From Ruminococcus sp. (GTDB lineage Bacteria > Bacillota > Clostridia > Oscillospirales > Ruminococcaceae): 64,000 bases of DNA. The notes beneath the pieces were generated by a model, which was not told the DNA's origin, ran no database searches, and worked only from the letters and a program-made list of their open reading frames with translations. The position numbers were made by a program, and so were the translations under genes. The stretch spans positions 1-64,000 of the forward strand of contig JAFVFL010000022.1 of the NCBI GenBank assembly GCA_017475555.1, read 5' to 3'. Below, piece by piece: positions 54,818-58,062 of this stretch. Every line of letters begins with the position of its first letter. The first letter of the stretch is position 1.

Positions 54818-56227
54818 TTATCTCATTCCGCCCGGTCTGTTCATATTGCCCGGTCGGTTCGCACTGATATGCTGCTGAGGTCTGCCAACGACCTGTAAGC
54901 CGCCGCCATTTCCCCCTCCGCCGCCGCTTCCGGGAGGCGGCTGTCTGTTTATCGGTGTTCTGTTGATCTTTTTGGTCAGGAAATTATCATTTCTCTGGGT
55001 CAGATTCATGCTGTCCGGCTTCTGATACACCGCTGCACCATACGCCCTGCGGACGGTTTTCAGCTGTGCCTTCAGCGAGCCGCCGGTCACAGCTGCAACT
55101 ATGCCTGCGACCACGAGGCTCACTATCACACCTGTACTGTCGAGTACGCCTGTAAAAAGGAACACTCCGAGCAGCATTATCGCAAGTGCAATTGCAAAGC
55201 TGCCGCAGAGATAGCCGTAGAATTTACCCATATCCGCCGGTAGATCGCCGACAAATTTTCCGGTCTGACCATTCATCGCAAAGGTGTATTTCTGCTCATT
55301 CCACGTCGTATTCAATATCCACACCGGGTAAAGTGCATACTTTGACCGTGAATTCTGTAGCTTCACCGCACTGTTCTCACATGAAACGCTGTCATATCCT
55401 GTAACAGTACCGGCAAAAGCCTGCTCCGTGCTTTTCTTTATACGTTCATTCGCACGCCCTATGCTCTGCTCTGCGTCCACATCATATCTGTCCGCAAGAT
55501 ATCCCGAAAGGAACGCCGTACTGAACGTCTCCGCCTTGCTGACATCGAACGGCTCAATGGACTCCATAAGCTCGTCCGGCATTTTCTCCGAGCCGTCAAC
55601 AGGTACGTCCTCAAACGAGATATTTCCTGCACGTACCGCCGAATAATAGCTCGTTTCCACATACGAAAAATTATTATCCTGCCAGCTTCTCACCTTTTCG
55701 CCTCGGAAGACCATATGTGCATCAGCGTCCGCACTGAAAAGCCATACCGGGACATAAAGCCCCTTTATCTCGTCTATGTGGTTCTGCTCCCTGAATACCT
55801 TCGGCAGCAGCTTCTTTCCCTCAAGGTGCTTGGAAAGTGCAGTCTTGGCAGCCTCCTTGTCCAGCTTGAAGGGTATCACAAGATCAGGGCGTATATCTCC
55901 CGAAAACTGCCCTGACATAACAACAGGATTCCCGCAGTACGGACAGTGTGTCGCACCGGTCGTCTCGTCAGCGATTATCTCTCCTCCGCACGACTTGCAG
56001 CTGTACACCTTCATGCCGTCCGTCTCTCCGTCCTCCCATTCGCTGCCCGTGGGAGCCTCAAGCTCCATTTCGTCCTCACCGGCTGAATCTATCTCGTCGT
56101 TGTAATTCTGAACGGTCTCAACATCAAATTCCGAATCGCAGTACGGACACTTCATTTTCTGCACCGCACTGTCAAATTCAAGCTTTCCGCTGCAGCACGG
56201 GCATTTGTATTCTCTTACCTCTGCCAT
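54818..56227 (-). CDS. zinc-ribbon membrane protein, YdjG-like
   Basis: This 469-residue protein has two N-terminal zinc ribbons: CPCC..CPYC (residues 9-12 and 28-31) and CKSC..CPYC (about 77-80 and 94-97). A globular middle region follows (IPFKLDKEAAKTALSKHLEG, GLYVPVWLFSADADAHMVF). Two adjacent membrane helices at about 345-390 lead to a cytosolic tail rich in Gly, Pro and Asn. It resembles B. subtilis YdjG, whose operon also encodes the SPFH protein YdjI. The SPFH gene here lies upstream on the same strand, separated by the 8-bp motif array. AAAGGAGGTG precedes the ATG. The pair may sense or protect the membrane; this is inference. Confidence 0.75.
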   Translation of the reverse strand: MAEVREYKCPCCSGKLEFDSAVQKMKCPYCDSEFDVETVQNYNDEIDSAGEDEMELEAPTGSEWEDGETDGMKVYSCKSCGGEIIADETTGATHCPYCGNPVVMSGQFSGDIRPDLVIPFKLDKEAAKTALSKHLEGKKLLPKVFREQNHIDEIKGLYVPVWLFSADADAHMVFRGEKVRSWQDNNFSYVETSYYSAVRAGNISFEDVPVDGSEKMPDELMESIEPFDVSKAETFSTAFLSGYLADRYDVDAEQSIGRANERIKKSTEQAFAGTVTGYDSVSCENSAVKLQNSRSKYALYPVWILNTTWNEQKYTFAMNGQTGKFVGDLPADMGKFYGYLCGSFAIALAIMLLGVFLFTGVLDSTGVIVSLVVAGIVAAVTGGSLKAQLKTVRRAYGAAVYQKPDSMNLTQRNDNFLTKKINRTPINRQPPPGSGGGGGNGGGLQVVGRPQQHISANRPGNMNRPGGMR

Positions 56228-56308
56228 ATATTCACCTCCTTTGAATTACTCCCATTCAAGAAAAATGTTCCTGTGATAAACCAGAATTTGCTGCCGTTTT
56301 ACTGAACA

Positions 56309-56586
56309 GGCGTATGAAATATACGCCCTGACGTACCGTATACGCCGTGGGTATACGCCGTTTTTTCCGAAATACAGGCAAATACACGCCTATACGCCGT
56401 ATTTTGCAGTTGCTATATATTATATATACACCTCACGCTGTCAGCTTTGTCCGTTCAGTGATTATTTTGTATTTTATAAAAGAAGTATAATATAAGGCGT
56501 ATAGGCGTATATAGGGCTATATACAGTCATTTAAGGCGTATACTCACGGCGTATGGGGGCGTATATGGCGTATGTAACGGCGTATA
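56309..56586. repeat. array of 13 copies of the 8-bp motif TATACGCC in inverted orientation
   Basis: GGCGTATG at 56309 faces TATACGCC at 56320. Four more copies in the TAYACGCC orientation are at 56339, 56352, 56383 and 56391. After an AT-rich centre (56401-56495), seven copies in the GGCGTATR orientation are at 56496, 56504, 56535, 56548, 56558, 56567 and 56579. The copies at 56383/56391 and at 56496/56504 are directly adjacent, making a 16-bp inverted repeat with one mismatch across the centre. The 485-base gap between the two genes contains no supported reading frame. The layout is like iterons or a multi-site operator. Confidence 0.9.
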
Positions 56587-56712
56587 TTTATCCGGGGCAA
56601 ATCCCGGTTTGTCTTAACAAAATTTCTGAAAAGGACATAGGCTTCAGAGAGCCCGTACAGAAAGAGGAGCAGACACCTCCGTCCGCCCCTCTCCGCAAAT
56701 CCTGTAATACTA

Positions 56713-58062
56713 TCAGGATACTATATCGTCATCAGTGAACGGGTCGCCGCACTCAGCACAGAACTTAGGAGGATTGAACGGGTCAGCCGGCTCCCAGCCG
56801 CACTTATCACACTTGTAGAGCGGTGCTCCGGCAGGCTTGGGCTTGCCGCACTCTGAGCAGAACTTGCCCTTGTTCACAGCTCCGCAGCTGCACGTCCAGC
56901 CGTCAGCAGACGGTCTGGGCTTTCCGCAGTTCTCACAGAACTTTCCGGTATTCGATGTTCCGCAGCTGCATACCCATGAAGCTGCCGCAGAAGCAGCACC
57001 GGGAGCAGCAGAGGGTGCAGGAGCAGCCGGTGCAGCCGCAGCCGCAGCCGCCTTCTGCTGAGCACTCATATTGAACAGCTCCTGAGCGTTGAATCCGCCA
57101 GCCTGCTGAGCCATGCCCATACCGAAGAAGCCCATTGCAGCTCCGCCCTGATTGCTTGCAGCATTCTGCATAGCCTCAGCCTGAGCAGCCACCATAGTTG
57201 CAGCAGCATTGCCAGCATCTCTGTTCCATGCAGTATCCTCGAACTTCTTTATCCTGTCCTCGTCTTCCTTGGATATGGTGACAGAATTGATCGCAACAGA
57301 AGCTACCTCAAGACCTCTCTTCTGCTTCCAGAGACCGGTCAGAGCCTCGTTCATAGCGTCGGTAAGCTCAATGGTATGACCCGGCAGCTCATCGTATCTT
57401 ATACTGTTGGAAAGCTTTGCAAATGCGGGCTGGAGGTTGTTCAGGAACTCAGACTTGAGCTGCTCATCAAGCTCGCTGCGTGAGTATGAACCGCTGAAAT
57501 TACCGCTGATGTTGAGGTAGAACGCCGACGGGTCGGTTATCTTGTAGGAGTAAATGCCGTTGCAGCGAACGCCTACAGTGAACGCCCTGCCGATATCCTC
57601 ATATGTAACTCTGAACGGCACAGGATTCTGTGTACCGAACTTATTTCCGATTATCTCCTTGGTATTGAAATAGTAGACTCTCTGGTCTCTTGCAACGTCT
57701 CCGCCGTGCTTGATACGATCCCACATCTCCTTGAAGGTATCCTTGACGCCCTGTCCGAAGTTGCCGGAGAAGAAGCTTGACGGCTGACTGCTGTCGTAGG
57801 TATAGCAGCCGGGTGCAGTTGCGATCTCGATAACTACTCCGCTGTCTGTAATTATCGCTGCCTGTCCCTCATGAACAACGATGCCGCTGCCCTCAGTGAT
57901 TACATTCTCGCTGCCCTTGGTGTTTGACGAGTGCTTGCTCGTTTTCTTCACACCCTTGACAACAAGCGTATCCGCCGGGATAGAATCGCAGACGAAATAC
58001 TCAAGCCACGAATCAGCGAGCGTGCTGGAAAATGAAGCAAGAGCTGCATGGATAAGTCCCAT
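56713..58062 (-). CDS. SPFH-domain protein with C-terminal zinc ribbons, YdjI-like
   Basis: This 449-residue protein has an SPFH domain at about residues 20-290 (DSIPADTLVVKGVKK, then QAAIITDSGVVIEIATAPGC and VRCNGIYSYKITDPSAFYLN). A helical stretch rich in Ala and Met (290-350) leads to three zinc-ribbon-like modules: CSCGTSNTGKFCENCGKPRP, CSCGAVNKGKFCSECGKPKP and CDKCGWEPADPFNPPKFCAECG. SPFH proteins assemble into rings or scaffolds at membranes; YdjI of B. subtilis is the nearest named relative. AAAGGAG precedes the ATG. It is upstream of the YdjG-like gene, with the motif array between them. Confidence 0.85.
   Translation of the reverse strand: MGLIHAALASFSSTLADSWLEYFVCDSIPADTLVVKGVKKTSKHSSNTKGSENVITEGSGIVVHEGQAAIITDSGVVIEIATAPGCYTYDSSQPSSFFSGNFGQGVKDTFKEMWDRIKHGGDVARDQRVYYFNTKEIIGNKFGTQNPVPFRVTYEDIGRAFTVGVRCNGIYSYKITDPSAFYLNISGNFSGSYSRSELDEQLKSEFLNNLQPAFAKLSNSIRYDELPGHTIELTDAMNEALTGLWKQKRGLEVASVAINSVTISKEDEDRIKKFEDTAWNRDAGNAAATMVAAQAEAMQNAASNQGGAAMGFFGMGMAQQAGGFNAQELFNMSAQQKAAAAAAAPAAPAPSAAPGAASAAASWVCSCGTSNTGKFCENCGKPRPSADGWTCSCGAVNKGKFCSECGKPKPAGAPLYKCDKCGWEPADPFNPPKFCAECGDPFTDDDIVS

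Follow-up and report, generated by a model that had tools for sequence, protein, structure and literature searches.

The window analysed here is a 64,000-nucleotide stretch of Ruminococcus sp. contig JAFVFL010000022.1. Between an SPFH gene and a YdjG-like gene, it carries a dense array of a single 8-mer at 56309-56586, with thirteen copies, nine of them exact TATACGCC and four with a single mismatch (Table 1). Counted as 7-mers, GGCGTAT/ATACGCC occurs exactly twelve times, together with one TACACGCC. One opposite-strand copy opens the left block (56309) and is followed by five facing right (56320-56398); across an AT-rich centre of 97 bp, seven more face left (56496-56586). The iterons are thus split 5+1 on one side and 7 on the other, and the two arms are spaced as mirror images. 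The whole window contains 15 exact occurrences of TATACGCC against 1.4 expected (the shuffle maximum was 5, and none of 100 shuffles reached 15), and no other 8-mer in the window clusters equally densely within 300 bp. The array is therefore real and far beyond chance. The earlier note on this DNA had described thirteen copies in this inverted arrangement (1+5 left, 7 right), lying between these two genes, clustered beyond chance and flanking an AT-rich centre, all of which is borne out except the length of the centre, which it gave as 95 bases.

Table 1. Features of the iteron array and its surroundings (window coordinates).
Feature	Position	Strand	Remarks
YdjG-like zinc-ribbon membrane protein gene	54818..56227	-	3' of the insertion on the minus strand; conserved neighbour outside the unit
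Whole interspersed unit, about 343 bp	56275..56613		Aligned with the C18, C40 and C24 copies; between SPFH and YdjG-like genes; one of four genomic copies
Left terminal-inverted-repeat-like end, GATAAACCAGAATTTGC	56275..56291	+	Common to the C18 and C40 copies, missing in C24
Palindrome GGCGTAT-GAAA-TATACGCC	56309..56327		Resembles the centre of helicase-linked arrays; same palindrome type in loci L114, L117 and L118
Left arm, iterons at 56320, 56339, 56352, 56383 (TACACGCC), 56391	56320..56398	+	Offsets 0-8-39-52-71 (minus strand, tandem pair outward)
AT-rich centre, 72% AT	56399..56495		Sequence of the C24-copy type, not C18/C40
Right arm, iterons at 56496, 56504, 56535, 56548, 56558, 56567, 56579	56496..56586	-	Offsets 0-8-39-52-62-71
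Right terminal-inverted-repeat-like end, reverse complement GACAAACCGGGATTTGC	56597..56613	-	From the alignment of copies
SPFH gene (Band_7_1, PF13421)	56713..58062	-	5' of the insertion on the minus strand; conserved neighbour outside the unit

The earlier note had proposed searching the whole genome for further clusters. Paired TATACGCC clusters are confined to only four places in the 2.5-Mb genome, each a different intergenic region, and the reversed pattern, searched as a control, gave no clusters. The three copies besides that in the window, on contigs C18, C40 and C24, match the whole window intergenic region at 84%, 85% and 83-91% (the last in two pieces), respectively; one lies upstream of a RarA-like gene, one between convergent 3' ends at ksgA, and one between two tandem genes. 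The window, C18 and C40 copies have about 343 bp in common, with near-identical boundaries and inverted ends of type GATAAATCRGAATTTGCC that form imperfect terminal inverted repeats of 17 bp. The C24 copy has different ends, lacks the terminal repeats, and carries an insert of ~165 bp in its centre. This insert (locus L045, about 1675-1838) starts with GGCTCTGTCCCAACA, has ends that partly match and resembles an ISL3-type MITE. The window copy is itself a mosaic, with arms of the C18/C40 type and a centre identical to that of C24 over about 56 bp.

We also compared the divergence of iterons and spacers between copies, counting the arms only and using a mask built from all copies. When C24 is compared with the other copies, the divergence is 13-14% in iterons and 33-35% in spacers; the three similar copies have diverged from one another equally in both, so present-day selection is not demonstrated. 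A first count had indicated strong iteron conservation, but it took in the recombinant centre and used a one-sided mask; the redone count keeps only the C24 difference. Outside and over the left end of the window copy lies AAGAAAAATGTTCCTGTGATAAACCAGAATTT (56248-56290), which also occurs beside the C18 copy and, with no array, in intergenic DNA of genomes G015 and G022; it may be a short repeat in its own right or mark a preferred site. As single-stranded DNA, 56274-56616 folds far better than shuffles (z -6.2) owing to the inverted arms; such a fold is not required by the origin reading developed below, and could matter if the unit moves in single-stranded form. A search for known RNA families returned only a chance miRNA match far below threshold.

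The tandem pair of the arms, GGCGTRTAGGCGTRTA, is found in 9 of the 125 genomes of the genus, mostly draft assemblies and many of them metagenome bins, and the records that carry it in a named collection are from uncultured Ruminococcus. In relatives, arrays sit directly 3' of a gene for a DUF5906 (D5/P4-type) helicase, with iterons either of the GGCGTATA type (G094:C68, G136 and G070) or of the GGCGTGTA type (G094:C21, G060, G126 and G026:C27). In all of these genomes (G094 having two elements) the order is a CHC2-type primase gene, the DUF5906 gene and then the array. The host elements carry a relaxase (MobA/VirD2-type, PF03432), NikA/MobC, an AAA NTPase and a tyrosine integrase or large serine recombinase, and the same module, with relaxase and recombinases, is present on Ruminococcus albus 7 plasmid pRUMAL02. 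From their gene content, which combines relaxase and NikA/MobC with an integrase or recombinase, these elements look like integrative mobilizable elements. Elements of that kind are expected to pair an integrase or recombinase with a relaxase and to lack a conjugation apparatus of their own; a relaxase and a recombinase were present in the elements examined. Phage satellites (PICI), by comparison, are expected to show phage-dependent induction and to have packaging genes and no relaxase; the elements examined do not fit, as they encode both the PF03432 relaxase and NikA/MobC. A viral origin was considered and rejected: IMG/VR contains no match to the arm pattern, and DUF5906 matches in phage records never reach 60% identity.

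To describe the repeats behind these helicase genes, we took the 220 bp that follow the DUF5906 stop codon, determined how often their most frequent 7-mer occurs and compared this count with 100 shuffles. Among 30 DUF5906-related loci of the genus, the count was unmatched by any shuffle in 18 and matched by at most two in another three; the remaining nine have repeats that fall below significance in this simple 7-mer count. Control stretches taken 500 bp further on, or within the gene, gave counts of at most 3. The iterons differ by helicase lineage and include GGCGTATA, GGCGTGTA, GGCGTGCA, GGTGTCTT, GGTGTATT, TGTGTAA and GGTGTAGG. Their spacing is far more constant. Measured from the tandem pair, both window arms follow the pattern 0-8-39-52-71 (the right arm having an extra iteron at 62). 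So do most arms of the genome's other copies (the C24 right arm ends at 72), the two arms of each of the arrays in G070 and G136, and the G094 and G060/G126 arrays. The pRUMAL02 array, with iteron GGTGTCT, is spaced 0-8-39-51-71, within one base of this pattern, and some orphan arms in G026 and G146 are off by at least one base. The iteron sequence changes between helicase lineages while the spacing stays.

The C-terminus of the helicases changes along with their iterons. We compared pairs with near-identical cores and different iterons, taking the last ~95 residues as the C-terminal part. Differences were concentrated there in all three pairs: 28/94 in the C-terminal part against 9/244 in the core for G126 and R. 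albus (p=1.5e-10), 15/95 against 7/240 for G033 and G103 (p=7e-5), and 27/96 against 19/245 for G070 and G117 (p=4e-6). Of five pairs that share an iteron, four had no C-terminal excess and one a weak excess (p=0.02). This covariation suggests that the C-terminal domain recognises the iteron. The AlphaFold model of the helicase (pLDDT 83) has as its best Foldseek match the SaPI5 primase-helicase (E 6e-16), to which it is also similar by sequence (E 4e-6).

These features recall several known replicons. In SaPI Rep helicases, the C-terminal domain recognises an iteron origin directly downstream of the helicase gene, and that of SCCmec Cch2 binds iterons between cch2 and ccr (PMC7581432). In PICIs the origin follows rep immediately on its 3' side and always comprises two iteron sets around an AT-rich region (PMC6092414). 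The arrays described here share with PICI/SaPI origins the two inverted sets of short iterons, the position of the cognate arrays directly 3' of a D5-like helicase gene, an iteron sequence specific to the helicase, and a helicase fold closest to the SaPI5 primase-helicase. They differ in that the window array has no adjacent helicase gene (and none of its type in the genome), that the cognate elements carry relaxases and resemble mobilizable elements rather than phage satellites, and that the primase is a separate CHC2 protein. The order of helicase gene, iterons and large serine recombinase (G094:C68, G070, G136 and G117) is that of the SCCmec Cch2 replicon, as are the Primase_Cterm (TIGR01613) helicase and the implication of its C-terminal domain in iteron reading; the recombinase scores to CcrB at E 3e-46, yet far below the CcrB cut-off. 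Unlike the Cch2 replicon, with three 5-mers and a CCPol-MP primase, the array here has about thirteen 8-mers in two inverted sets and its cognate elements a CHC2-type primase. The P4-type alpha helicase with its ori/crr likewise combines a P4-family primase C-terminal helicase (TIGR01613) with an iteron origin, but here the primase and helicase genes are separate and P4 genes are absent.

The genome that carries the window, estimated to be 100% complete, contains no DUF5906 match at E<=1e-20. Two weak helicase homologues (23-26% identity) were considered as the cognate helicase and rejected, the one on contig C10 having different repeats behind it (CCGTCACACC) and the one on C16 none. At C10 (locus L150), the genome's own P4-family primase gene (771 codons) is followed 3' by inverted CCGTCACACC repeats, so the rule that iterons lie behind a D5-type gene holds there with another iteron. 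Neither in the window nor elsewhere in its genome does the TATACGCC array stand directly 3' of its own helicase gene, as arrays of the same motif and spacing do in relatives; with no cognate helicase in the genome, it is an orphan origin-like array.

Such orphans are not confined to this genome. They were also found in G035, G146 (15 arrays), G028, G025/G083, G117 (beside a full element) and at many places in G026. G083 and G025 share an array at one position next to speE, in a 2-kb stretch that is 92% identical between the two, indicating that at least one orphan array has been inherited through a species split. The arrays in G146 are strongly clustered, 13 of 15 having a neighbour array within 6 kb (0/20,000 random placements). 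On its contigs C4, C5, C8, C17 and C24 (L110, L204-L207 and L212), pairs or triplets of arrays lie 1.6-5.7 kb apart around 1-3 ordinary genes, and their AT-rich arm ends point toward the enclosed genes. In G026:C3 (L063, 2286-4095), uppP lies between double arms that form a near-perfect inverted repeat (89% over 217 bp). We rejected uppP as transposon cargo, as it is single-copy in nearly every genome, including G026, and close relatives are array-free at the same place. A MITE-like insert of ~220 bp with inverted ends AGGGCAACAGCATTTACTTT lies upstream of this uppP (L063, about 2675-2897) and is missing in relatives. In G026:C61 (L065, about 360-700 and 2240-2660), long AT-rich degenerate repeats (ACGACATA.../ATGTCGT...) lie beside both arms as mutually inverted copies.

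Taken together, the array is very probably a dispersed copy, orphaned from its helicase, of the SaPI/SCC-type iteron origin that DUF5906 mobilizable elements carry. Its identity as an origin is well supported by linkage, spacing and covariation. In relatives the array is linked to the helicase, while here it occurs four times with no helicase, which argues for a displaced origin copy rather than a switch for a neighbouring gene. If the system works as SaPI Rep and SCCmec Cch2 do, the cognate helicase would use its C-terminal domain to bind the short iterons; its hexamers would be loaded onto both inverted iteron sets and would melt the DNA, after which replication would start with the CHC2 primase. 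The orphan copies probably descend from DUF5906 elements, the array having presumably become separated from the replication genes to leave a 343-bp non-coding unit in four intergenic regions. The earlier note had offered an iteron-type origin left by a plasmid or phage; the iteron origin holds up, the same motif and spacing being found 3' of DUF5906 genes, but its source is more probably a mobilizable island with a SaPI/SCC-type replicon. Some observations sit uneasily with the origin reading. The helicase-linked arms converge on a short palindrome with their AT-rich sides outside, whereas the window arms flank an AT-rich centre, and the orders arm-palindrome-arm and arm-AT-arm are equivalent only on a circle. 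The nine helicase loci with no significant repeats behind the gene also count against it, and the four copies, whose boundaries are almost constant, call for an active means of spreading that it does not supply.

The earlier note had also suggested an operator for the YdjG-like gene. A cooperative operator is conceivable from the position of the array upstream of this gene and from the ability of inverted multi-site arrays to act as operators. The SPFH-YdjG-like gene pair, however, is kept in 29 relatives, none of which has an iteron array or other repeats between the genes. Their gap is below 100 bp in 24, somewhat longer or unresolved in four and interrupted by an extra gene in one, compared with 485 bp in the window, so the array is an insertion and not an operator. 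The other three copies lie beside unrelated genes, and promoter-like sites are no more frequent than in shuffles, which makes control of the YdjG-like gene highly improbable, and we reject it. The earlier note had held that its proposals would fail if no relative conserved the array beside this gene; this is indeed the case, but it bears on the operator alone. Mobility or recombination is suggested by the inverted-repeat ends, the repeated boundaries, the mosaic centres and, in some genomes, the clustering of arrays. In a rival reading, the unit is a MITE, and a transposase provided in trans would bind both its terminal inverted repeats and its subterminal TATACGCC arms; its resemblance to helicase-linked arrays would then reflect an origin captured by a transposon. 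Like MITEs, the unit is short, non-coding and dispersed, occurring at four intergenic sites (three of them with nearly the same boundaries), and it has inverted-repeat ends; arrays elsewhere in the genus are intergenic too. MITEs share their inverted repeats with an autonomous transposon, but here the repeats occur in three copies and in no further place in the genome; the left end matches only short stretches elsewhere, so no parent element was found. Neither a transposase for the unit nor a target-site duplication at the copies was identified, there is no close empty site for the window copy, and the C24 copy lacks the terminal repeats. The transposon ends proposed in the earlier note thus find a counterpart in the repeated 343-bp unit and its terminal-inverted-repeat-like ends, but not in a transposase or duplication. 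As the helicase-linked replicon accounts for the motif, the arm spacing and the internal iterons with no transposase, we regard a MITE as possible but rather unlikely.

Perhaps the host instead keeps the arrays as decoys, whose iterons titrate or handcuff the helicase of incoming DUF5906 elements, comparable to iteron incompatibility. Orphan arrays with no helicase in this genome and in G035, G146, G028 and G025 would fit such a role, as would the inheritance of the speE-side array through at least one species split and the lower divergence of iterons than spacers between C24 and the other copies. However, the three similar copies show no such difference, an intact chromosomal origin could hurt the host by firing, and the carriers G026 and G117 also hold active-looking elements, leaving the decoy role quite improbable. 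Another proposal, which we consider unlikely, is that the 343-bp units are minimal selfish replicons, gene-less origins copied, circularised and re-inserted in trans by passing DUF5906 elements. Cutting the arm-palindrome-arm order open within its palindrome gives the arm-AT-arm order of the window, which is what linearisation of a small circle at the origin centre would produce.

The SaPI/SCC-type origin, with iterons directly behind a D5-like helicase gene, appears to be widespread in Ruminococcus mobilizable elements. Since the helicase C-terminal domain and the iteron change together at fixed spacing, origin recognition would be testable by natural domain swaps. Such origins also exist as orphan chromosomal repeats with no helicase, and one may ask whether these are debris, ride along by being replicated in trans, or serve as decoys against elements that enter the cell. 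If these units are indeed minimal replicons, a replication signal alone would spread as a mobile repeat.
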